The position numbers and the translations under genes were made by a program. A stretch of DNA of 20,263 nt from assembly GCA_031261625.1 (NCBI GenBank), contig JAISJG010000018.1, positions 1 through 20,263 of the forward strand, in the 5' to 3' direction. The notes under the pieces were generated by a model. That model worked only from the letters and a program-made list of their open reading frames with translations. It was not told the origin of the DNA and did not search any database. The stretch comes from Candidatus Methanoplasma sp. GTDB lineage: Archaea; Thermoplasmatota; Thermoplasmata; Methanomassiliicoccales; Methanomethylophilaceae. Each line of letters starts with the position of its first letter. Positions within the stretch are counted from its first letter, which is position 1. Positions 6,875-20,263 of this stretch are shown piece by piece.

Positions 6875-9790
6875 ATGCCCTTGGGAATGGGAAACGGTTT
6901 CAGACTAGTTTTCACGCTGTTAGTTGCAATTGTCGCAGTCTCGGCCATATATTCTGCCGAAGTCACATCAGCCGACGGTATAAGCGATACGGCATCTCTG
7001 GAAATTTCCGTTCTGGATGGTGGCATAATCGACATCGACGGAAATTTCACACTTACAAATAATATCTCAATTACACAAGATACGGTCCTGAGAGGTTCGG
7101 GCGGTACTTACACTATAACCCGCGATCTGTCACTGGGGTCGTGCATGTTCACTGTTGAAACGGGCATCAGTTTCACGTTAGAGAACATTATTCTGGACGG
7201 CGGCGGACCGACGGCGACCAACGCATTATCGATAATCCTCGTCAAAGCGGGCGGAGAACTCAATCTGAGATCCGGATCCGTACTGACAAATAATCACATA
7301 TCTTCAGAGTTCAGCGGAGCGGCGGTCCATCTCTTCGCTTCCTTTCTTTTGGATCCGGAAGCCAGACCCACAACCCTCAATATCGACGGAGGCTCGATAA
7401 CGAATAACAATTCCGGTGCCAACGGCGGAGGTATAGCATCCAATGGGGATGCGGTTATCAATATTACATCGGGAACTATCTCCGGAAACACAGCATCCGG
7501 ATACGGCGGCGGAATATATGCCGTAAGGTGCGATCTGACCGTCAGCGGAGGTGAATTTTCAGACAATCATGCCGAAAGAGGCGGCGGTATCGCCTCGGTA
7601 GGCGGAGATGTCGATATCAGCGGAGGTATCTTCGACAACAATGCAGCCGATATTTCGGGCGGTGCATTGTTGTATCTGTCGGATCCCCCGAGCGGATCGT
7701 TCAAAGTTTCAGGTAACACCGAGATCAAGAATAATTCCGCTGTGAACGGCGGAGGTATCGCATATGGTTCCAAGAACGGCGGAGAAATGGTCATTCCCGC
7801 GGAAATAACGGGAAATGTGGAGATACACAATAACACAGCGGATCTGGGAGGAGGATTGTTCTTCAGGACCGGAGGTACAGATGGCGGTCTGTCCGAGTTG
7901 AAGATAACAGACAATGTATCGATCCACGATAACACCGCAGTGTCAGGAGGAGGTATCTATTCCATTTCGGAAAGGACATCCGCAGCCGTCGATACATTAC
8001 ACGTTCTGGACATTTCCGGTAAGACATCGATTTCATTCAATGCTGCGAACACCGGTGGCGGGATAACGTCCGATAAGGGTCTGTTGAAGATATACGAAAC
8101 CGTGTCCGTAGATAACAACCATGCACAACAGCAGGGTGGAGGATTATATCTTCTGAGGTCAGAGATACTTGTCAGCGGCGGTTCTGAGATAAAGAATAAC
8201 ACCGCAGATACAACGGGCGGCGGGGTATACGTTTACGGTTCCGTACTCAATATCTCCGAAGAAAGCAAAGTGACAGGCAACGAAGCCCATACTTCAGCAG
8301 GCGGTATCTATATCGGAGCGGCCGTCGATGAAACCGGAAGTCTGATACTGTCTGGCACAGGGGAGATATCATACAATAAATCTGAAGGGACGGCAGGCGG
8401 TGTACTCATAGATGTGCGCGGATCGGCAACGTTCACCGGAAATATCTTCATGACAGAAAACCTGTCCGGCGGCAACGGAAGCGGGATATATCTCAAGAAC
8501 GGTGGAACGATAACTGTTTCGGGCTCTCCCAGAATAGGCAGAGCCATAGACGATAATACGATATTCCTGGATGCCGGAACGTTCATAAACATTACGGGCT
8601 CGAAATTAGGAAGTTCTGCAAGAATATACATCGGTTCCATCTCGGTACCTGCGGGGGATGGAAAACTCTTAGCGAAAAGAATCGGTTCAACGGCTTCCGA
8701 GGACGAAGCCAAGCGTCTCATATATACAGCGGATTTGGAATATTGTGCTGTACCGTCATCATCGGAATATATTCTGATGTATGTGGAAAGGTACGAGATA
8801 ACAACAGACATCCCGTCGGATACGTACGCATTCCCTATGGCCATTAAGGACTACGGTCAGCAGACCGATCTCAAAGTAAGGATATTCAACGTGGGGAACC
8901 ACACGATCACGCACCTCAGGGTGACGGTCGTAGGATTGGATGCGGGAAGTTTCATCATCGGCGATCTGTCGGAGACCACGATCGTTCCCGGAGGCATATC
9001 GATACTATCGATCAGACCGGCCAACGGCCTGGCACCTGGAAAATACACGACCAATATCTCTGTGTCCGGATCCAACGGAACGAACATTTCGTTCAATGTA
9101 TCATTCATGGTCAGTGCATTCGAACATGTGGTGATCACCGACGATGTGGCACAGGACCCGTATATCTATTCCGGAAAGACGGAAGGATATCTGAAAGCGG
9201 ATCCGTTGGATGTCAAGATCAGGAACACCGCCGACAGGAACGTGACCGGCCTTTATGCATACATCGGAGGTAAGGATGCGGAAAGTTTCATACTCGGTCC
9301 ACTTTCGAAATCCAGCATATCCGCCGGGACCGATACATGTTATTTCACCGTGACCCCGAAAGTAGGATTGGAAAGGGGAACGTACGTCGCATCCGTTTCC
9401 GTAAGCGGGGATGACGGTGCATACACCACGTTCTCGGTTAGCTTCACAGTATCCGAAGATCCGGGACCCGGTCTTGGAATATGGCTGTATGTGATAATCG
9501 CTTCAGCGATGATCATCGCCCTCGCTGCCGTGTATATCCTTATACGCATGAGATCGGTCGGAGTGATCAAGATGATCGCGGGCGATAACGTGACAATAAA
9601 GGGTGGAGACCATGCCCGCAGGAACAAGCCGTATAAGTTCACCGTGGACGGTGAAGACAAGATAATCAGCGTATCATACCGTATCGGGGCCAAAGGAGAA
9701 TGGAAGATACCCGGACTCAACAAGAAAGGCCAATACGAGATCCCGTCAAGGGAGATAACAGACCATATCACGATTCGTGCAAGGGATTGA
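6875..9790 (+). CDS. Adhesin-like beta-helix membrane protein
   Basis: About 971 residues, predicted cell-surface protein. An N-terminal signal segment (FRLVFTLLVAIVAVSAIYSA) precedes a right-handed beta-helix region (about 50-560) with about 13 repeats of a pattern like NNTAxxGGGIY. Two tandem Ig-like repeats follow (about 640-745 and 748-860), each ending in a YxxxxSVSG-like segment. One transmembrane helix (about 868-892) is followed by a charged tail of about 79 residues. This fits the adhesin-like proteins common in gut methanogens, presumed to contact host glycans or other microbes. The reading frame is open far upstream, antisense to tgtA; that part is rejected because tgtA is real and the signal peptide fixes the start. 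ATG 6875 follows AAGGGA; ATG 6887 is an alternative, also consistent with the signal peptide. Confidence 0.85.
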   Translation: MPLGMGNGFRLVFTLLVAIVAVSAIYSAEVTSADGISDTASLEISVLDGGIIDIDGNFTLTNNISITQDTVLRGSGGTYTITRDLSLGSCMFTVETGISFTLENIILDGGGPTATNALSIILVKAGGELNLRSGSVLTNNHISSEFSGAAVHLFASFLLDPEARPTTLNIDGGSITNNNSGANGGGIASNGDAVINITSGTISGNTASGYGGGIYAVRCDLTVSGGEFSDNHAERGGGIASVGGDVDISGGIFDNNAADISGGALLYLSDPPSGSFKVSGNTEIKNNSAVNGGGIAYGSKNGGEMVIPAEITGNVEIHNNTADLGGGLFFRTGGTDGGLSELKITDNVSIHDNTAVSGGGIYSISERTSAAVDTLHVLDISGKTSISFNAANTGGGITSDKGLLKIYETVSVDNNHAQQQGGGLYLLRSEILVSGGSEIKNNTADTTGGGVYVYGSVLNISEESKVTGNEAHTSAGGIYIGAAVDETGSLILSGTGEISYNKSEGTAGGVLIDVRGSATFTGNIFMTENLSGGNGSGIYLKNGGTITVSGSPRIGRAIDDNTIFLDAGTFINITGSKLGSSARIYIGSISVPAGDGKLLAKRIGSTASEDEAKRLIYTADLEYCAVPSSSEYILMYVERYEITTDIPSDTYAFPMAIKDYGQQTDLKVRIFNVGNHTITHLRVTVVGLDAGSFIIGDLSETTIVPGGISILSIRPANGLAPGKYTTNISVSGSNGTNISFNVSFMVSAFEHVVITDDVAQDPYIYSGKTEGYLKADPLDVKIRNTADRNVTGLYAYIGGKDAESFILGPLSKSSISAGTDTCYFTVTPKVGLERGTYVASVSVSGDDGAYTTFSVSFTVSEDPGPGLGIWLYVIIASAMIIALAAVYILIRMRSVGVIKMIAGDNVTIKGGDHARRNKPYKFTVDGEDKIISVSYRIGAKGEWKIPGLNKKGQYEIPSREITDHITIRARD

Positions 9791-12811: not shown

Positions 12812-12833
12812 TCGCGTCCGATTAAGGATGTTG

Positions 12834-14642
12834 ATGGCAGTTTTGGAAGAGACCATAGCCAAGGCGAACAACGGTGAGATGGATTCCTGTTTTGCGCTTG
12901 GACAGGCATATGCCTTAGGGGAGGGTGTCGGGGCGGACGAGAGCGAGGCTTTCAGTTGGTATCTGAAGGCTGCAAAGCTCGGGCACACGGCCTCAGAATT
13001 CATTATCGGTCATTGCTATGCTAACGGCATATCTGTCGGTCAAAGCATAGACGAAGCGGTTGACTGGTACTCCAGGGCAGCTCTGAAGGGTTATTCCGAT
13101 GCTGTCAGTGCACTTTCAAAGCTCTTCGAGAGCAACGATGTCCCTACGGATAAGAAATTATTCTCGAGGATAAGCGGTAAAATAGAGGACGGGTCCCCGG
13201 CAGATCTGTATCTGGTGGGAACATTCTACAATCTCGGAATCGGTACGCCGTTCGATGCGGAGAAAGCATTCGAAATGTTCAGCAGATCCGCGGAACTCGG
13301 TAACACGGACGGAATAATCTCCAAAGCACTCTGTCTTATCAGAGGTACAGGTACCGTAAGGGACAGGGACGCGGGAATAGCATTGCTCAATGAAGCCTAC
13401 GAAAAAGGTTCGGCAGCAGCAGGATGCGAACTCGCACAGTTATACGAGCGCGGTATCGGTGTCCAGAAGGACCAGAAACGCGCTTTCGCGATCTATGATG
13501 AGATAGCCGACCGCGGCTCCCCCCTCGGACAATATCATTTGGGCAGGAGCTACATGGACGGCATTGGCACAGAGAAGGACGCCGTGTACGCCAACAGCTG
13601 GTATACCGCATCGTTCTCCAGAGGCTGCAAGGATGCGGAGTTCGGACTTGCCAGATGCCTTTTGGGAGGTGTCGGAGTGAATAAGGACAGAGCCGCAGGT
13701 CTGGATCTTCTGCAATCAGCGGCCGGTAAAGGTCAGACGGATGCGATGGTCATGCTCGCCCAGCTCTACACCAAAGGTGTCCAGGTGCCTAAAGATATCA
13801 CCAAGGCTGCGGAATGGTACAAGAAAGCTGCGGATCTCGGAGATGCATACGCCGAATACACCACAGCTGAGAACTATTCCAACGGTATCGGTGTCAGAAA
13901 GGACCTGAAGAAAGCAGCATATTATTACGAGAGATCGGCCCAGCACGGTTACGTGTTGGGATGTCACATGGTCGGCAGCGCGCTCATTTCCGGTAACGGT
14001 GTTCCCAAAGATGAGAAGAAAGGATTCGAGTGGTGTCAGAAATCGGCCGCTGACGGATACCTCAAGTCACAATACATCATAGCCGAGAGCTATGCCAAAG
14101 GCAGAGGAGTGAAGAGAGACGTCACCAAAGCGTTCGAACTCCACAGCGTTCTGGGAGATAAAGGATACAACAAATCGCAACTATATGTTGCCAATTGCTA
14201 TCTGGAAGGCAACGGCGTGACCCGCAACGACAAGAAAGCGTTCGAGTGGTTCACAAAAGGTGCAGAGGGTGGCAACATCATCTGCCAGTATTATCTGGGG
14301 CAGTGCTACGGCAACGGAACGGGTACCAAGGTAGATGAGCAGAAAGCCCTCGTATGGTATACAAGGGCCGCCGAACAGGGTCACACCCTTTCCAGAACAA
14401 TAGTAGAAGAGTTCACAGGGACAAAGATGGATGTCAAGAACGTCTCCCCCTTCGATTCATATATGTTCTCGGCGAAGAACGGCGATCCGGATGCGATGTA
14501 CATCATCGCAAGGTACTACGAAGACGGTCTGGGCGTGGACAAGAATCCTGCAGAGGCCAAAAAGTGGTACAACAAAGCAGCGTCCGCAGGACATTTCGAG
14601 TCCAAAAAGGCACTTCTGCGTTTCAGATCGGCAAAATCATAA
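12834..14642 (+). CDS. Sel1-like repeat protein
   Basis: About 602 residues made almost entirely of Sel1-like (TPR-related) repeats of about 36 residues: I count 16, of which the third and fifteenth are degenerate. A typical unit is GxGVxKDxxKAxxWYxKAAxxG followed by a helix beginning AxxxLGxxY. Such alpha-solenoids bind proteins or act as scaffolds. No signal peptide or membrane helix is seen, so the protein is probably cytoplasmic. The partner is unknown. An in-frame ATG at 12828 would add two residues; the TATA spacing favours 12834. A clear terminator hairpin follows. Sel1 repeats are much more common in bacteria and eukaryotes than in archaea, so acquisition by transfer is possible but not shown here. 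Confidence 0.88.
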   Translation: MAVLEETIAKANNGEMDSCFALGQAYALGEGVGADESEAFSWYLKAAKLGHTASEFIIGHCYANGISVGQSIDEAVDWYSRAALKGYSDAVSALSKLFESNDVPTDKKLFSRISGKIEDGSPADLYLVGTFYNLGIGTPFDAEKAFEMFSRSAELGNTDGIISKALCLIRGTGTVRDRDAGIALLNEAYEKGSAAAGCELAQLYERGIGVQKDQKRAFAIYDEIADRGSPLGQYHLGRSYMDGIGTEKDAVYANSWYTASFSRGCKDAEFGLARCLLGGVGVNKDRAAGLDLLQSAAGKGQTDAMVMLAQLYTKGVQVPKDITKAAEWYKKAADLGDAYAEYTTAENYSNGIGVRKDLKKAAYYYERSAQHGYVLGCHMVGSALISGNGVPKDEKKGFEWCQKSAADGYLKSQYIIAESYAKGRGVKRDVTKAFELHSVLGDKGYNKSQLYVANCYLEGNGVTRNDKKAFEWFTKGAEGGNIICQYYLGQCYGNGTGTKVDEQKALVWYTRAAEQGHTLSRTIVEEFTGTKMDVKNVSPFDSYMFSAKNGDPDAMYIIARYYEDGLGVDKNPAEAKKWYNKAASAGHFESKKALLRFRSAKS

Positions 14643-14711: not shown

Positions 14712-14725
14712 TAGACAAATGTCCA
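14712..14725. promoter_or_regulatory. Upstream copy of the TAGACA/TGTCTA operator-like site
   Basis: TAGACA-AA-TGTCCA, which matches the palindrome in the amtB promoter with one mismatch in the right arm. Its centre lies 135 bp upstream of the promoter-proximal site. The 14643-14900 intergenic region otherwise contains the terminator, A/T-rich DNA and the amtB promoter; no gene is seen in it. Confidence 0.45.
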
Positions 14726-14834
14726 TTGTTCGTTGCGAAAATAATGAAAACAATGTTCAAACGTCTTATTATCCTACGTTTTTCGTAATATCTGTATCGG
14801 ATTTCAGAATATCTTAGTTATTTGAATAATAATC

Positions 14835-14842
14835 TTAATATA
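14835..14842 (+). promoter_or_regulatory. TATA box of amtB-glnK
   Basis: TTAATATA precedes a predicted start of transcription near 14865, giving a leader of about 36 nt. The leader contains a small hairpin (TCTCA 14866-14870 with TGAGA 14877-14881) and a strong GGAGG (14889-14893) 7 nt before the amtB ATG. Confidence 0.55.
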
Positions 14843-14846
14843 CATT

Positions 14847-14860
14847 TAGACATTTGTCTA
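14847..14860. promoter_or_regulatory. Perfect palindrome in the amtB promoter, probable operator
   Basis: TAGACA-TT-TGTCTA is a perfect 6-2-6 inverted repeat placed between the TATA box and the predicted transcription start. That is where an archaeal repressor would block polymerase recruitment. It does not match the published NrpR operators (GGAA-N6-TTCC type). Related sites occur at 14712, 18474 and 18600. Confidence 0.6.
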
Positions 14861-14900
14861 GTCAATCTCACTTGGATGAGACAAAATTGGAGGACAATAG

Positions 14901-16244
14901 ATGAAGTTCAGAGTAATGGTCGCGTTGGGAGTTGTAGCAGCTGCCCTTTTGACGATCTTTATGATCCCTGAGGCCTCGGCCGCAGGAATACCCGAAGTGT
15001 ATGATGCTGAGAGCAGCATAAACCTGGGAGACTCGATGTGGATTTTGATATGTACAATACTTGTGTTCATGATGGCACCTGCTCTTGCTCTGTTCTACGG
15101 CGGAATGCTGAGGAAGCAGAGTATGACATCCACCATCGCGCAGTGTACGATGGCATCCGCAGTGGTTTTCCTGTTCTGGGCGCTTATAGGTTATTCATTC
15201 GCATTTGACGGGGACCACGCCGGAATAATCGGCGGATTCGGATACGCTTTTATGAACAATGTACCGTTCGATCAGGCGATCGTAGGAGGAACCATACCGG
15301 ATATGGAGTTCCTCGTGTTCCAGGGAATGTTCGCTTTGGTCACCGCATGTATCGTCGTCGGTGCTGTTGCAGAGAGGGTAAGATTCTCTGCCATAATGGT
15401 GTTCCTCGCACTCTGGTGCGTTTTCATCTATGCACCCATGACACACATGGTATGGGGCGGAGGACTTCTGTCCCCTGACTACTTGACCGAGATCGGACTC
15501 ACATCCCTCGACTACGCAGGAGGAACCGTGGTGCACATATGCTCCGGAGTATCAGGACTGGCGATAGCCATAGTGGTAGGAAAGCGCAGTGCCAGGACCA
15601 TAAAGGAGAGACCCCACAACGTCCCGCTGATGTACCTCGGTGCGATCATGCTGTGGCTCGGATGGCTCGGATTCAACGGAGGATCCGGTCTCGCATTCAA
15701 CACCGGACTCTTCAACGTCATTACTGTGACACTTGTCAGCTCGTTCGTGGCCATGATCGCATGGGCTGTACTGCAGACGGTACTTGCGGGAAGGATAAGC
15801 GTTTCCGGTCTTTGTGCCGGTTTCCTTGCCGGACTCGTAGGTATAACACCTGCCTGCGGTTTCGTTGATGTACCTGCGGCCATTGTGATCGGAATCGTAA
15901 CGGCGATCATCTGTTACTTCGGAATCTCTTTCATGAGAAAGAAGTCCGGAGTGGACGATGCGTTGGATGTGTTCGGACTGCACGGATTAGGCGGTATAAC
16001 CGGTGCTATACTCACCGGAGTACTGGCGGTTCCCGCACTCACGGATACGCCCGGAGCCATCTATGGCGGATGGGACCTCCTCGGAGGACAGTTCGTCGCA
16101 GTCGGATTCACTCTGCTGTATTGTTTCGTCGTGGCATTCGTACTGATGAAGATCATAAGCCTCGTCATGAAGTACCGTCTTACGGACGATGAGGAACAGA
16201 TCGGAGCCGACATTGTGGAACACGGAGAGTCCGCATACAACTGA
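14901..16244 (+). CDS. amtB: Ammonium transporter
   Basis: 447-residue Amt/MEP/Rh family channel, membrane-embedded, conducting ammonium or ammonia (and often methylammonium). An N-terminal segment ending in EASAAGIPE looks like a signal peptide, followed by 11 membrane helices. Family residues: APALALFYGGMLRKQS near helix 1, the phenylalanine-gate segment FQGMFALVTACIVVGAVAERVRF, MVWGGGLL, and the twin-His pair in the pore, His212 (DYAGGTVVHICSG) and His361 (DVFGLHGLGGI). The C-terminal tail carries the short cytoplasmic region that PII proteins contact. GGAGG lies 7 nt before the ATG. glnK follows after 10 nt, the classic amtB-glnK pair. In a methylamine user the channel may also import methylammonium. 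Confidence 0.95.
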   Translation: MKFRVMVALGVVAAALLTIFMIPEASAAGIPEVYDAESSINLGDSMWILICTILVFMMAPALALFYGGMLRKQSMTSTIAQCTMASAVVFLFWALIGYSFAFDGDHAGIIGGFGYAFMNNVPFDQAIVGGTIPDMEFLVFQGMFALVTACIVVGAVAERVRFSAIMVFLALWCVFIYAPMTHMVWGGGLLSPDYLTEIGLTSLDYAGGTVVHICSGVSGLAIAIVVGKRSARTIKERPHNVPLMYLGAIMLWLGWLGFNGGSGLAFNTGLFNVITVTLVSSFVAMIAWAVLQTVLAGRISVSGLCAGFLAGLVGITPACGFVDVPAAIVIGIVTAIICYFGISFMRKKSGVDDALDVFGLHGLGGITGAILTGVLAVPALTDTPGAIYGGWDLLGGQFVAVGFTLLYCFVVAFVLMKIISLVMKYRLTDDEEQIGADIVEHGESAYN

Positions 16245-16254
16245 GGTGAACAAG

Positions 16255-16572
16255 ATGAAGATGATAGTTGCAATAATCCGCCCCGAGAAGGTACAGTGCG
16301 TAAAGGAAGCATTGTCGGCGATCGGGGTCAACGGAGTGACGATCGTCCAGGTCAAGGGAAGAGGATCCCAGGCCGGACTCAAGTTCACCAACAGGATAGG
16401 ATCGTTCGTTGTCGACGAGATCGAGAAGACCATGCTGGAGATCGTCATTGACGACGAAAAGAAGCAGGACGTCATAGATGCGGTCAAGGACGCAGCGTCC
16501 ACCGGCCACATCGGGGACGGAAGGATCTTCGTCCTGCCCGTGGAGGAATCCATCAAGGTTCACGATGATTAA
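16255..16572 (+). CDS. glnK: PII nitrogen regulator (GlnK/GlnB family)
   Basis: 105-residue PII signal protein, a trimer that senses ATP/ADP and 2-oxoglutarate and gates AmtB. Motifs: IVAIIRPEK at the N terminus and GDGRIFVLPVEE (87-98), the nucleotide-binding C-loop region. The T-loop (about 37-56) reads GSQAGLKFTNRIGSFVVD and aligns without gaps to E. coli GlnB. Gln39 and Lys58 are kept, but Tyr46 is Asn and the uridylylation site Tyr51 is Phe, so control by uridylylation at that residue is excluded. GAGGTGA, overlapping the amtB stop, is the ribosome-binding site. ATG 16255 is chosen; ATG 16261 is an alternative. The 10-nt spacing and the terminator downstream define the operon. Confidence 0.93.
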   Translation: MKMIVAIIRPEKVQCVKEALSAIGVNGVTIVQVKGRGSQAGLKFTNRIGSFVVDEIEKTMLEIVIDDEKKQDVIDAVKDAASTGHIGDGRIFVLPVEESIKVHDD

Positions 16573-16610
16573 ACCATGATATCCGAAACCCCTTAACAAA
16601 CCATTTATGA

Positions 16611-16649
16611 CATCCCGGAACGTTTGTTCTGTTCCGGGATGCCGCTTTT
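16611..16649 (+). terminator. Terminator after amtB-glnK
   Basis: CATCCCGGAAC (16611-16621) and GTTCCGGGATG (16631-16641) make a perfect 11-bp stem with a 9-nt loop, followed by a short T run (16646-16649). Confidence 0.7.
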
Positions 16650-16657
16650 CTGTCGTA

Positions 16658-16665
16658 CATAAATA
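16658..16665 (+). promoter_or_regulatory. TATA box of the first surface-repeat gene
   Basis: CATAAATA begins exactly 30 nt before the ATG at 16688, predicting a leaderless transcript. There is no Shine-Dalgarno sequence before this ATG. Confidence 0.55.
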
Positions 16666-16687
16666 ACATCAACGATAATATCTACAC

Positions 16688-17500
16688 ATGAAGAAGACAC
16701 TCATTCTTTTGCTGGTAGTCGTCGTTGTAGCAGTGGTAGCTGTCGCAGCGGTCGTTCTGCTGAGCGGTAACGGGGGAGAGGATGAAAAAGAACCGGAAAC
16801 GCCGGTCATCGAGACCTACACGGTAACATACTGTGCCAACGGCGGTAGCGGGGTCACGGAATCGCAGACGGTCACTGTCGGCAGTTCCGCCGCTCTGAGG
16901 GATAACGCGTTCATATACACCGGACGCTACTTCGAGGGTTGGGCTACGAATCCGGAAGGAACAGGGAAGATATATTCCCCCGGAGAGAGTTATACGCCCA
17001 CATCCGACATCAAATTCTGTGTGAAATGGAGCACGCAGAAAACAGTTGCGATAAGCTATTATTCGAACAACGGAACCGATAAGGTGATCAAGGACTATCG
17101 GATACAATCTTCTATCAGTCTGATAGAATTGAAAGGTTCAACGGCATTCGAATGGAGCGGTCACAAACTGTCATCGTGGAACACTCAGGCTGACGGCAAG
17201 GGAGTGGCACGTTCCCCAGGTGATCTGTACATAGTCAGTTCCGATGTATCGTTCTATGCTCAGTGGGATCAATCCATTCTGAAATACGTCGCTAACGACG
17301 GTACTTCGAAATCTTCAGAATTCTTTGCGACCAACGGAAATATTCTTTCAGCCTCAGCATCGACATTCACATGGGAAGGTCACACTTTCGACTCATGGAA
17401 TACCAAAGCGGACGGTTCAGGTACGGAATATAAAGCCGGCTCGTCTCTGATAAAAATAGAGTCATCGGATGTGACTCTGTACGCTCAGTGGAAGACCTGA
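16688..17500 (+). CDS. Listeria-Bacteroides repeat surface protein A
   Basis: 270 residues. A hydrophobic N-terminal segment (about 4-25, very Val-rich) acts as signal or membrane anchor, followed by an acidic linker (GGEDEKEPETP). The rest is three InlB B-repeat-like (Flg_new) units of about 70 residues: each opens with a strand ending in NGG/NNG/NDG and closes with an aromatic segment such as FCVKWS, FYAQWD or LYAQWK. Single-unit features include GxxFxxWNTxxDGxGxxYxxG. These small beta-grasp-like domains occur on surface proteins of host-associated microbes; function is unknown, with adhesion as the usual guess. It is a paralogue of the next gene, and its last repeat is nearly identical to that gene's last repeat. 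Confidence 0.85.
   Translation: MKKTLILLLVVVVVAVVAVAAVVLLSGNGGEDEKEPETPVIETYTVTYCANGGSGVTESQTVTVGSSAALRDNAFIYTGRYFEGWATNPEGTGKIYSPGESYTPTSDIKFCVKWSTQKTVAISYYSNNGTDKVIKDYRIQSSISLIELKGSTAFEWSGHKLSSWNTQADGKGVARSPGDLYIVSSDVSFYAQWDQSILKYVANDGTSKSSEFFATNGNILSASASTFTWEGHTFDSWNTKADGSGTEYKAGSSLIKIESSDVTLYAQWKT
17357..17443 (+). repeat. Duplicated repeat segment, copy 1
   Basis: This 87-bp segment aligns without gaps to 18063-18149 in the next gene with 76 identical bases by my count, far above the similarity of the flanking parts of the two genes. It encodes the core of the final repeat (TFTWEGHTFDSWNT). Confidence 0.8.
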
Positions 17501-17527
17501 AAGCGGCCTGAATATTATTATCATAAA

Positions 17528-17550
17528 CCTTTTATTCTTTTATATTTTTA
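17528..17550 (+). terminator. T-rich tract after surface protein A
   Basis: Pyrimidine-rich stretch with several T runs and no stem, 28 nt after the stop codon. Archaeal polymerase can terminate at such tracts. The 106-nt intergenic region also holds the promoter of the next gene. Confidence 0.35.
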
Positions 17551-17573
17551 AAGCAATATTCTTGATTTAATAA

Positions 17574-17581
17574 GATATAAA
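17574..17581 (+). promoter_or_regulatory. TATA box of the second surface-repeat gene
   Basis: GATATAAA begins 33 nt before the ATG at 17607; shifted by one base (ATATAAAT) the start would be 2 nt before the ATG. No ribosome-binding site is visible, so the transcript is probably leaderless or nearly so. Confidence 0.5.
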
Positions 17582-17606
17582 TCAGACATCGTCGATATAT
17601 TACAAT

Positions 17607-18209
17607 ATGACTCAGAAGGCATTAGTCCTCGTCCTTGTTGCAGTTGTGGTCGTGGTGATCGTAGCTGCTGCAGGGCTTGTGTTATTGAACGGGGGCAATG
17701 AGAACGAAGAGAAAGAAACAGGTCCGGAGACACCGATCGTATCATCATACATCGTTACATTCCATGCGAACGGCGGCACCGGAGAGGGCTCGCAAAGATT
17801 GGTAAAAGCGGGAGACTCCATACTGTTGCCTTCCAATAATTTCCTCCGTCTCGGATACTATTACGAATCGTGGTGCACCACACCAGATGGAACAGGGGAT
17901 ATCTATTCTCCCGGAGAATACTTTACTCCGACATCGAATCAGACCATCTGTGCGATATGGGTGGATGAACCGACACTGACGATCAATTATCAGTCCAATG
18001 ATGGAAATTTCGGATTCATATCGGACCATCCGACATTGACTAAATTCTCGAATCTTAGATCCGCATCGACGTTCACATGGGAAGGTCACACCTTCGATTC
18101 ATGGAACACCGAAGAGGACGGTTCAGGTACGAAATATGATGCCGGTTCATCACCGGATCCGGCAGAGCTGGGGAAAGCGACAGTGACATTGTACGCTCAG
18201 TGGATCTGA
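17607..18209 (+). CDS. Listeria-Bacteroides repeat surface protein B
   Basis: 200 residues, paralogue of the preceding gene with one repeat fewer. A Val-rich hydrophobic N-terminal anchor (about 5-27) and an acidic linker (NENEEKETGPETP) lead into two InlB B-repeat-like units. The first has FHANGGTGEG and ends ICAIWVDE; the second starts LTINYQSNDGN, contains TFTWEGHTFDSWNTEEDGSG, and ends LYAQWI. It has its own promoter, so the pair is a tandem duplication with separate control rather than an operon. Function is unknown; likely exposed at the cell surface. Confidence 0.85.
   Translation: MTQKALVLVLVAVVVVVIVAAAGLVLLNGGNENEEKETGPETPIVSSYIVTFHANGGTGEGSQRLVKAGDSILLPSNNFLRLGYYYESWCTTPDGTGDIYSPGEYFTPTSNQTICAIWVDEPTLTINYQSNDGNFGFISDHPTLTKFSNLRSASTFTWEGHTFDSWNTEEDGSGTKYDAGSSPDPAELGKATVTLYAQWI
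18063..18149 (+). repeat. Duplicated repeat segment, copy 2
   Basis: Partner of 17357-17443; most differences are at third codon positions. This suggests a recent duplication or gene conversion limited to the last repeat. Confidence 0.8.
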
Positions 18210-18302
18210 CCGCAAAACAACTCTTCAAAACCATTTACCGCATTTTCTATAATCCGAACTGCAGTAGTTTCAGAAGTAAAACGAAAAGGGTTGGGAATCG
18301 GT

Positions 18303-18449
18303 TTAGTTCCAGAGCAGCACGACGGCTACCAGGGCAACGACTATGACGAAGGCTATCGCGGGGAAGGCATTGACTGCTTTGTATCCGGCGGTCTTCTTGT
18401 AGATATCTACCATGAGTCCGAGAAAGCACAGCAAGAATAAAAAGAACAT
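18303..18449 (-). CDS. Small two-helix membrane protein
   Basis: A 48-codon ORF on the minus strand encodes a plausible hairpin membrane protein. It begins MFFLFLLCFLGLMVDIYKKT (first hydrophobic helix about 2-14), has a short polar turn with Tyr-Lys-Lys and Gly-Tyr-Lys, then a second helix (about 29-47, AIAFVIVVALVAVVLLW), and ends Asn-stop TAA. The charge pattern and codon use (GCC, GTC, CTC, TAC) match neighbouring genes. A TATA-like GTTATAAA lies upstream on the same strand, and the gene is divergent from mtmC. No Shine-Dalgarno sequence is seen. I do not recognise the family; the location suggests a link with methylamine or ammonium handling, which is inference. Confidence 0.6.
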   Translation of the reverse strand: MFFLFLLCFLGLMVDIYKKTAGYKAVNAFPAIAFVIVVALVAVVLLWN

Positions 18450-18473
18450 GGTTGAAGGTGTTGAAAACCCGAC

Positions 18474-18487
18474 TGTTCATTTGTCTA
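18474..18487. promoter_or_regulatory. Operator-like half-site between the small gene and mtmC
   Basis: TGTTCA-TT-TGTCTA: the right arm and spacer (CATTTGTCTAG) match the amtB palindrome exactly; the left arm is degenerate. On the minus strand it lies just after the predicted transcription start of the small membrane protein gene. Confidence 0.45.
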
Positions 18488-18512
18488 GAATAATGGATTT
18501 GTGATGTTCATT

Positions 18513-18520
18513 TTTATAAC
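18513..18520 (-). promoter_or_regulatory. TATA box of the small membrane protein gene
   Basis: On the minus strand GTTATAAA, predicting transcription from near 18490 and a leader of about 40 nt. Confidence 0.4.
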
Positions 18521-18543
18521 TTTTCATCGTGATGTGCTAACGA

Positions 18544-18551
18544 TTATATAT
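18544..18551 (+). promoter_or_regulatory. Probable TATA box of mtmC-mtmB
   Basis: TTATATAT in an A/T-rich tract (18544-18562) predicts transcription from about 18574 and a ~98-nt leader. A second candidate, TTTTAAAT at 18634-18641, would start transcription near 18664, after the ribosome-binding site, so it is less likely. Confidence 0.45.
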
Positions 18552-18599
18552 TAAAATAATATTGTCTGTGTACAAATAAGATTAAAGATAACGAAATTG

Positions 18600-18613
18600 T
18601 GTACATTTGTCTA
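18600..18613. promoter_or_regulatory. Operator-like site in the mtmC leader
   Basis: TGTACA-TT-TGTCTA: right arm and spacer identical to the amtB palindrome, left arm 4 of 6 matching. A weaker inverted copy (TGTACAAAT, 18569-18577) spans the predicted transcription start. Confidence 0.45.
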
Positions 18614-18672: not shown

Positions 18673-19308
18673 ATGAGCAAAGAACAGATTTTGGTCGATC
18701 TAAAGACCGCGGTCGAGACCTGGAACGTCAAGTTGGCGCAGGAATCAACAAACGCGGCCATAAAGGAAGGAATAGGCATCAAGGAGATCATCGAGAAGGG
18801 ACTCGGTAAGGGAATGGAGAGCATCGGAGTAAGATTCGACAAAGCCGAGATCTATCTCCCGCAGGTGGTCGCAGCATCGAAGACCATGGAAGCGGCCATA
18901 AAGATCCTCGAGCCGCTCATGAGCAAGGCCGACGGATCGCTCCGCGGTACTGTCGTCATGGGGACGGTCGAAGGAGATATCCATGAGATCGGAAAGAACG
19001 TATGTTGTGCAATGCTCCGCGGGGCAGGATATAATGTCATAGATCTCGGACCGGATGCGGATGCGCAAAAATTCCTCGATGCGGCAGAGGACAACGAGGC
19101 CAAGGTGCTCGGAGGATCGGCACTCATGACAACGACACTGGAAGCCCAGAGGGAACTCGTGGCTGCAGTGAAGGAGGTCGAGGGACCGTATAAGTGCGTC
19201 TTCGGAGGAGCACCCTGCAGCAAGGAATGGTGCGAAGAGATAGGTGCGGACGGATACTCCGCCACCGGTGCGGAAATAATCGACCTTGTGAATTCATTGA
19301 TAGAGTGA
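18673..19308 (+). CDS. mtmC: Monomethylamine corrinoid protein
   Basis: 211 residues, cobalamin-binding methyl carrier that accepts the methyl group from MtmB-bound monomethylamine and passes it to the coenzyme M methyltransferase. An N-terminal helical cap (about 1-88, with YLPQVVAASKTMEAA) precedes a Rossmann-type B12 domain with the GDIHEIGKN motif, where His104 is the lower axial cobalt ligand, then GSALMTTT and FGGAP. The start is ATG 18673, with AGGAG 10 nt before it; an ATG at 18652 lies upstream of that site and is rejected. mtmB follows 5 nt later, which fixes the MtmC rather than MtbC/MttC assignment, since these corrinoid proteins are similar. Confidence 0.93.
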   Translation: MSKEQILVDLKTAVETWNVKLAQESTNAAIKEGIGIKEIIEKGLGKGMESIGVRFDKAEIYLPQVVAASKTMEAAIKILEPLMSKADGSLRGTVVMGTVEGDIHEIGKNVCCAMLRGAGYNVIDLGPDADAQKFLDAAEDNEAKVLGGSALMTTTLEAQRELVAAVKEVEGPYKCVFGGAPCSKEWCEEIGADGYSATGAEIIDLVNSLIE

Positions 19309-19313
19309 TTACC

Positions 19314-20263
19314 ATGGCAGCAACAAGAGCACTTACGATAGCAGACGTTTACGACAGGTTCGTAAAGGGAAAGAAGGTCCAGGAAAGCGACTGGGACTAT
19401 ACCATAATACCGACCAAGCTCACCGAGCTTAAAGAGAAGTACAAACTCGATTTCGGGAATAAGATCATTCCTGAGGACAAAGAAACAAAGAACAATCTGT
19501 TCCAGGCCGGGCTCGAGATGCTTGTCGAGACCGGTTATTACAACACCGACCTCGGCCGTGTCATGCATGTGACCGAAGAGGAGGTCTGGGAAGGTATCAA
19601 GAAAACACCCACCAAGATCATACTCGGAGAGGGAAGGGACAAGGCCCATTTCTATCCGAGACGCGGGAACAGCCCGGTAAAGCCGATAATACAGGGAGGA
19701 CCTACAGGTTCACCGATATCCGAGGACATATTCATACAGGTGATGCAGTCGTATGCGCAGGAAGCCGTTGTCGACGATCTTGTGAACGGTGTAATGACCA
19801 CTTATGAAGGACACCCGGCCAAGACCAACACCCCATACGAGATACTTGCGACGATGGCAGAGCTCCGTGCAACGAAAGAAGCACGCATCAGGGCCGGAAG
19901 ACCCGGCCTCGGTGTCTAGGGACCTGAAACGCCATTGTCCGCGGCAGGACGTCTTGCAGCGGATCTCACGAACGGAGGCCACAGGCTCTGTGACGCACAT
20001 GAATGTTCCCAACTAAACGAACTGAAGATCGATATGGTCGGCCTGAACATGCTGTCCGGATGGATAGCCAACGGCGATATCATAATGATCGAGCAGATGC
20101 CCATATTCGGCGGATATACCGGCGGTCTCGAAGAGACGGCCATCAGCGATGTCGCAACGACCCTCGGATCCTTCGCACTGTTCGGCGGTAATTTCCACCT
20201 CGACGGTCCGATCCACATAAGATGGAACGTCACAACAGCGAAAGAAACACTCCAGGTTGCAGG
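19314..20263 (+). CDS. mtmB: Monomethylamine methyltransferase with pyrrolysine (3' end missing)
   Basis: Transfers the methyl group of monomethylamine to the corrinoid of MtmC. The gene reads through an in-frame TAG at codon 202, the position of pyrrolysine in the Methanosarcina enzyme. Translation stays open afterwards and continues with family sequence (GPET, SQLNELKID, DIIMIEQMPIFGGYTGG, HLDGPIHIRW), so it is neither a pseudogene nor two genes. The first part has RVMHVTEEEVWEGI, LGEGRDKAHFYPR and GRPGLGV before the amber codon. 316 codons are present before the window ends; roughly 140 residues of the ~458-residue family length are missing. GTGAT overlapping the mtmC stop may be the ribosome-binding site. 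It requires pylT, pylS and pylBCD elsewhere in the genome. Confidence 0.96.
19917..19919 (+). other. In-frame amber codon decoded as pyrrolysine
   Basis: TAG is codon 202 of mtmB, flanked by RPGLGV before and GPET after, as in known MtmB proteins. The pyrrolysine is the catalytic residue thought to bind and orient methylammonium. Confidence 0.95.
19938..19963 (+). promoter_or_regulatory. PYLIS-like hairpin downstream of the amber codon
   Basis: TCCGC (19938-19942) pairs with GCGGA (19959-19963) and GCA (19944-19946) with TGC (19955-19957), with one G/A mismatch between them and an 8-nt loop. It begins 18 nt after the TAG, in the region where a pyrrolysine insertion structure has been proposed. 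Its importance is uncertain because UAG readthrough works without it in several tests. Confidence 0.4.

Follow-up and report, generated by a model that had tools for sequence, protein, structure and literature searches.

Background

As described in the available portions of the papers cited here, nitrogen control in Methanosarcina mazei involves NrpRI, which binds DNA, and NrpRII, which contacts the general factors, with RNA polymerase being kept away, and some of the genes upregulated under nitrogen limitation in this organism are methylamine-specific (PMC3960522). In Sulfolobus acidocaldarius, the regulator Sa-Lrp has glutamine as its cofactor, and the control regions to which it binds are those of gltB, gdhA, three glnA genes and the gene for Sa-Lrp itself; in an Sa-Lrp mutant the expression of gltB was unchanged in three conditions (PMC3584215). 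The haloarchaeal lrp gene adjoins glnA, and Lrp activates glnA in Halobacterium (PMC8229911). The available part of a further paper (PMC10799026) treats enzyme regulation and does not mention NrpR. For the methanogen order Methanomassiliicoccales, nitrogen sensing seems to be undescribed in the literature searched. The subject here is a 14-bp palindrome, TAGACATTTGTCTA, in 20,263 nucleotides of Candidatus Methanoplasma sp. (contig JAISJG010000018.1, positions 1 to 20,263; this whole stretch is referred to as the window), where it stands before the ammonium transporter gene amtB and the PII gene glnK and, in weaker form, before the monomethylamine corrinoid protein gene mtmC.

The explanation that best accounts for the results as a whole, with a probability of roughly 0.75, is that the palindrome is an order-wide nitrogen operator, that an Lrp/AsnC protein reads it, and that mtmBC was brought under it in the lineage of the window. 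The literature searched yielded no account of the operator, of the order-wide regulon or of a replacement of NrpR; regulation of the Lrp-type kind is already known.

The palindrome in the window and across the order

Direct inspection of the window sequence recovered all four elements that the initial annotation, made from the sequence alone, had placed there (Table 1), together with its spacings of 135 bp for the pair at amtB and 126 bp for the pair at mtmC. Relative to the pattern TAGACANNTGTCTA, the main palindrome at 14847 has no mismatch, the upstream copy at 14712 (TAGACAAATGTCCA) has one, the mtmC-side copy at 18600 (TGTACATTTGTCTA) has two, with an exact right half and a degenerate left arm, and the copy at 18474 on the side of the small gene (TGTTCATTTGTCTA) has three. 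A weight matrix trained on 38 sites (at most two mismatches) upstream of relatives' amtB genes, with the window left out, scored these elements at 23.9, 19.5, 14.8 and 4.0 bits, respectively, and these are the four best scores over the 20,263 bases. The numbers expected over the same length, in the same order, are 0, 0, 0.014 and 2.1 in random text of AT-rich intergenic make-up and 0, 0, 0 and 0.65 in random text of whole-window make-up. Thus, the sites at 14847 and 14712 are beyond doubt and the site at 18600 is significant, even against the AT-rich background. The site at 18474 was rejected as independently significant, since 0.65-2.1 such sites are expected per window and the aligned promoter of Ca. 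Methanoplasma porotermitis (locus L001) contains no counterpart. A loose count allowing three mismatches found seven sites in the window against 5.89 expected, which is not above chance.

Across 147 Methanomassiliicoccales genomes the exact sequence occurs at 115 sites in 66 genomes, against a single match to a reversed-pattern control, and the motif is therefore not at background frequency across genomes, in agreement with its proposal as a regulatory element. Allowing one mismatch yields 250 distinct sites in 99 of the 147 genomes and 54 control matches (the control being summed by hand). Among 302 other genomes of the class (400 drawn, minus the 147), only one exact site was found, with three control matches. 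A chance origin of the main sites is rejected by the matrix scores together with the 115 to 1 count, and TAGACATTTGTCTA is a genuine operator in the Methanomassiliicoccales, all but confined to this order within its class. As a separate observation, genome G080 contains six copies of TGGACATTTGTCTA on contigs C14, C17, C18, C27, C60 and C67, two of them at base 64 of their contig, and these copies look like part of a repeat element.

The position of the palindrome within the promoter is revealed by an alignment of 32 amtB promoters, selected for carrying a site of at least 14 bits, in all of which it stands a few bases past an AT-rich, TATA-like stretch. Judged by the usual archaeal distance from TATA box to start, the amtB operator would lie between the TATA box and the transcription start, which would be the position of a repressor. 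Second copies are often found 123-125 bp upstream in relatives, as compared with the 135 bp and 126 bp of the window. The phasing of paired sites at 10.5 bp per turn gave R = 0.49 with p about 0.03, where repeated spacings were collapsed, a choice made in this analysis, and the period was one of three tried. These statistics are weak, and the preference of paired sites for spacings near multiples of 10.5 bp, compatible with oligomers that bridge both copies, is suggestive only.

Nitrogen genes as targets

A site with at most one mismatch lies within 350 bp upstream in 27 of 30 fetched amtB loci, the exceptions being G067, G086 and G088. In the order-wide count, which kept 115 amtB matches from 92 genomes after fragmentary and weak matches had been dropped (the unfiltered search reached 99 genomes), 65 matches have such a site within 400 bp upstream and one has it downstream. 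The remaining targets were surveyed at 70 exact sites away from the listed amtB genes, by collecting genes of at least 100 codons that start within 450 bp. This census returned type III glutamine synthetase (GSIII, 10), the Lrp/AsnC regulator (7), glutamate dehydrogenase (7), a glutamate-synthase-like protein (6), an AlaX-like protein encoded divergently from lrp (4), more amtB-like genes (3) and HMGL/LeuA-like synthases (2); the remaining clusters have few members and probably include some spurious reading frames. A common site thus stands before several nitrogen-assimilation genes in relatives (amtB, GSIII, glutamate dehydrogenase and the glutamate-synthase-like gene), of which the window shows amtB-glnK only, and this distribution supports the view that nitrogen genes throughout the order share the palindrome as their operator. 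The scan of relatives places the motif before glutamine synthetase, a target that the initial annotation had named as support, and before other nitrogen genes as well as amtB-glnK. In G042 a DUF1846 gene (L104:1467-2951) is preceded at 50 bp by an exact site.

The candidate regulator

The operator described for NrpR is different from this palindrome, and NrpR itself was rejected as the reader of the site because its domain, PF01995, is found in none of the 147 genomes, while the positive controls M. jannaschii and M. acetivorans match. That the regulator is something other than NrpR, as had been suggested, is consistent with this absence, and an Lrp/AsnC protein fits as the candidate. An orthologue of this family is present in 109 of the 147 genomes (E <= 1e-15; one match was kept per genome, five second or partial matches being dropped). 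The representative in G018 matches PF13404, the AsnC-type helix-turn-helix, at 36.0 bits and PF01037, the ligand-binding domain, at 47.0 bits, both above cut-off. The protein also matches the solved structures 8q90 (2.9e-21), PH1519 (3.5e-17) and LrpA (5.8e-15), the first of which is presumably a Haloferax protein, its structure record naming only an AsnC family regulator.

The motif and Lrp co-occur in the 147 genomes (both, motif only, Lrp only and neither: 88/11/21/27, p = 1.4e-8) and among the genomes with amtB (72/4/8/8, p = 4.8e-5). These Fisher p values are too small owing to the relatedness of the genomes, and the tree is the sounder evidence. A McrA tree was built from 60 of the 115 genomes with a McrA match, chosen so that 11 of the 12 genomes that have amtB but not lrp are represented; the twelfth, G081, is without a McrA match and was left off. 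On this tree the absence of Lrp needs ten changes. Six of the ten lrp-less lineages are without any site (G139; G026; a clade of seven; G090; G058 with G060; G062), and a seventh (G050, G054, G055 and G057) has one site, in G050. The clade of seven (G073, G077, G078, G082, G083, G086 and G088) lacks both lrp and the motif and keeps amtB, and the amtB upstream regions of its members and of G081 all score below 0; among lrp-bearing comparators, 8 of 10 amtB regions reach 20 bits and that of G126 reaches 10.6. Much of the weight of this co-loss comes from the one clade of seven.

Two further observations concern lrp and the operator. The motif (at most one mismatch, within 400 bp) stands 15-47 bp before lrp in 17 of the 109 genomes, and 13 of 50 fetched lrp upstream regions reach 10 bits. 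In addition, lrp lies 6-14 kb from amtB in 16 genomes. At L298, L299, L300, L302, L303, L305, L307 and L313, where this distance is 6-11 kb, lrp is divergent from the AlaX-like protein. Because the motif and Lrp co-occur, the site is found before lrp, lrp is found near amtB, and both are missing together from a clade that keeps amtB, the Lrp/AsnC orthologue is the predicted binder of the palindrome. An Lrp-type protein is the most likely regulator and seems to stand in for the NrpR of other methanogens. The description of this factor as a new regulator was too strong, since in Sulfolobus an Lrp-type protein is already known to bind at the gltB, gdhA and glnA control regions (available part of PMC3584215).

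The methylamine link

Ca. Methanoplasma porotermitis (L001) has the gene order amtB-glnK-small gene-mtmC, as in the window, although only the first 66 bases of its mtmC, identified by eye, are on the contig. In its aligned mtmC promoter the counterpart of the 18600 site retains the right half and scores 14.6 bits. Another mtmC, on contig C93 of G001, has a different promoter and no site. Elsewhere in the order, of 111 mtmC-like genes kept from 82 genomes, 4 (in 4 of the 82 genomes: G033, G034, G041 and G043) are preceded within 400 bp by sites of no more than one mismatch, at distances of 163-349 bp, and these four genes carry five sites where 0.05 would be expected from the overall site density. 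In G036, TAGATATATGTCTA is found at -207 of an mtmC-like gene. A site as a general feature of mtmC promoters was rejected, because most of 30 fetched mtmC loci (L185-L214) have none: only L196 and L214 exceed 20 bits, two more score 9.6 and 6.8, and the nine loci most similar to that of the window (L185-L193) score below 0.

The link may also take the form of gene placement. An mtmC-like gene directly follows amtB-glnK in G101, G040 and G126, with 70, 50 and 49% identity to that of the window, respectively, and the sites before the amtB genes concerned are exact in G101, while the one in G040 has a single mismatch and the one in G126 scores 10.6 bits. In Ca. Methanoplasma glyptotermitis (L002, 555-11912), amtB-glnK is followed by mtbC, mtbB, a permease, mttB, mttC, mtmC and mtmB (the names mtbC, mttB and mttC are the present reading of the sequences), and the sole site on this contig at up to two mismatches is the one at amtB. 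The link to mtmC is thus real but patchy. The coupling to methylamine use put forward in the initial annotation is supported as far as the site kept in L001, the 4 of 111 mtmC-like genes and the placement of mtmC after glnK are concerned, and is limited by this patchiness; likewise, the upstream conservation it expected holds for 27 of the 30 fetched amtB loci and is not supported for mtmC in general.

Features of the window

Table 1. Genes and promoter elements of the window
Feature	Position	Strand	Basis
Second operator copy, one mismatch, 135 bp from the first	14712-14725	.	Matrix; several relatives' copies at 123-125 bp
TATA-like box TTAATATACATT, directly upstream of the operator	14835-14846	+	Conserved AT-rich box in the 32-promoter alignment
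Main operator of amtB-glnK, TAGACATTTGTCTA	14847-14860	.	Matrix; aligned with 31 other site-bearing amtB promoters
amtB, ammonium transporter	14901-16244	+	PF00909, 358 bits; TIGR00836 above cut-off
glnK, PII signal protein	16255-16572	+	PF00543 (longer open reading frame 16189-16572); two P-II models, below cut-offs
Small gene, 48-residue hydrophobic peptide, divergent from mtmC	18303-18449	-	Homologues beside amtB-glnK in L001 and L002
Weak site resembling the operator, ca. 25 bp before the small gene	18474-18487	.	4.0 bits, not significant alone
AT-rich, TATA-like stretch of the mtmC promoter	18543-18560	+	Aligned with the L001 promoter
Operator-like site of mtmC	18600-18613	.	14.8 bits; L001 counterpart at 7138, 14.6 bits
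mtmC, monomethylamine corrinoid protein	18673-19308	+	PF02310 and PF02607 (open reading frame from 18652); adjoins mtmB
mtmB, cut by the window end; in-frame TAG at 19917-19919	19314-20263	+	PF05369 MtmB, 499 bits, TAG read as a residue

The match of mtmC to TIGR02370 (185 bits) is below the cut-off of 215, and the 48-residue peptide has no Pfam match. Two Listeria-Bacteroides-repeat proteins lie between glnK and the small gene at 16688-18209; in L001 the small gene comes directly after glnK. The Sel1-repeat protein upstream of amtB (12828-14642) is syntenic in L001. The window falls within the Methanomassiliicoccales by its relatives. Over the best segments, the AmtB of the window is 65% identical to that of Ca. 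M. porotermitis and 63% identical to that of Ca. M. glyptotermitis; the AmtB of G067 is 76% identical. Scans of the window with Rfam and for tRNAs gave no matches, and a plasmid search found nothing.

Proposed mechanism and alternatives

The Lrp/AsnC protein would bind the palindrome as a dimer, with higher oligomers bridging paired copies, and the bound region between the TATA box and the transcription start would block RNA polymerase when nitrogen is plentiful, the likely signal being an amino acid, for example glutamine. Through a weaker copy, the amtB-linked mtmBC would have come under the same control in the lineage of the window and Ca. Methanoplasma porotermitis, such that methylamine, which yields ammonia, could be drawn on when nitrogen is short. 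This link would tie energy metabolism to nitrogen supply. A broader proposal can be offered tentatively, at slightly less than even odds: the order would have no NrpR and would rely on a single Lrp-type master repressor with a 14-bp palindromic operator, and several lineages would independently have linked methylamine methyltransferase genes with it, either through sites in their promoters or through placement behind amtB-glnK, so that methylamine would serve also as a regulated nitrogen source. With a defined operator, a list of targets and a named candidate protein, the question is directly testable.

Several observations weigh against a nitrogen operator read by Lrp. At two mismatches the motif falls below the control in G001 (17 against 28) and G002 (41 against 149), 50 of the 115 amtB matches are without a site at one mismatch, and in G067, whose AmtB is the closest to that of the window, the only amtB site is a decayed one. 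The motif and Lrp are weakly linked in genomes without a kept amtB match (16/7/13/19, p = 0.055). Three lrp-less lineages (G019, G127 and G045) keep the motif, and G019 and G127 retain amtB sites of 15.7 and 14.5 bits, which perhaps reflects incomplete assemblies. Conversely, G095 has lrp and its amtB region scores -9.3, and 2 of the 40 lrp-bearing tips of the tree (G059 and G046) are without a site. No Lrp-like gene was found within the window. Finally, 20 of 20 extra lrp upstream regions, drawn from genomes for which no site at lrp had been listed, outside the 17, score below 6; self-regulation is therefore not general, and its universality was rejected.

One alternative is that the operator and its nitrogen regulon are real but that another DNA-binding protein reads the site, lrp being merely a target. 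The site precedes only 17 of 109 lrp genes at one mismatch and 400 bp, three lrp-less lineages retain motifs, and the co-loss comes largely from one clade of seven genomes; set against this are the presence of lrp within 15 kb of amtB in 16 genomes and the poor showing of an ArsR-type protein, the one other regulator cluster recognised beside sites. This regulator, included as a control, shows no association with the motif (p = 0.29) and is present in all seven members of the motif-less, Lrp-less clade, and it was rejected as the reader. A reader other than Lrp is unlikely. It is far less probable still, to the point of being hardly credible, that the palindrome has no regulatory role and represents a repeat or an AT-rich hairpin arisen by chance: loose matches are at background level and the TGGACATTTGTCTA copies recur on several contigs of G080, but the exact matches number 115 against 1, their place after the TATA-like box is fixed in the 32 site-bearing amtB promoters, and their targets are nitrogen genes.

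The more serious doubt, although the odds are against it, is that, within a genuine regulon, the sites near mtmC in the window arose by chance or are relics, methylamine genes being outside nitrogen control here. The 18474 site is at chance level, the left arm of the 18600 site is degenerate and a site is lacking before most of the mtmC orthologues examined; the 18600 site nevertheless reaches 14.8 bits where 0.014 such sites are expected per window and has its 14.6-bit counterpart in L001, sites stand before 4 of 111 mtmC-like genes where 0.05 sites are expected, and the order amtB-glnK-corrinoid gene recurs in G101, G040 and G126.

Comparison with known systems

The Lrp/AsnC protein would share its role with NrpR, the nitrogen repressor of other methanogens, to which it is unrelated. 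The nitrogen control of methylamine genes in M. mazei concerns another order and another regulator, and direct control is not established there in the available part of the source (PMC3960522). The haloarchaeal Lrp provides the best NCBIfam match of the Methanomassiliicoccales protein, through the halophile model NF041396, but at 95.6 bits this match is far below the cut-off of 190 for the equivalog, and the available part of PMC8229911 makes no mention of such an operator or of an amtB-glnK target. Here one palindrome marks the targets, whereas the site of Sa-Lrp is described as bipartite and a strict palindromic consensus was not met in what is available of that work; like the regulator proposed here, Sa-Lrp is an archaeal Lrp-type protein tied to nitrogen genes (PMC3584215). 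The results suggest that an Lrp-type circuit, of a kind known from Sulfolobus and haloarchaea, fills the place of NrpR in this order of methanogens.

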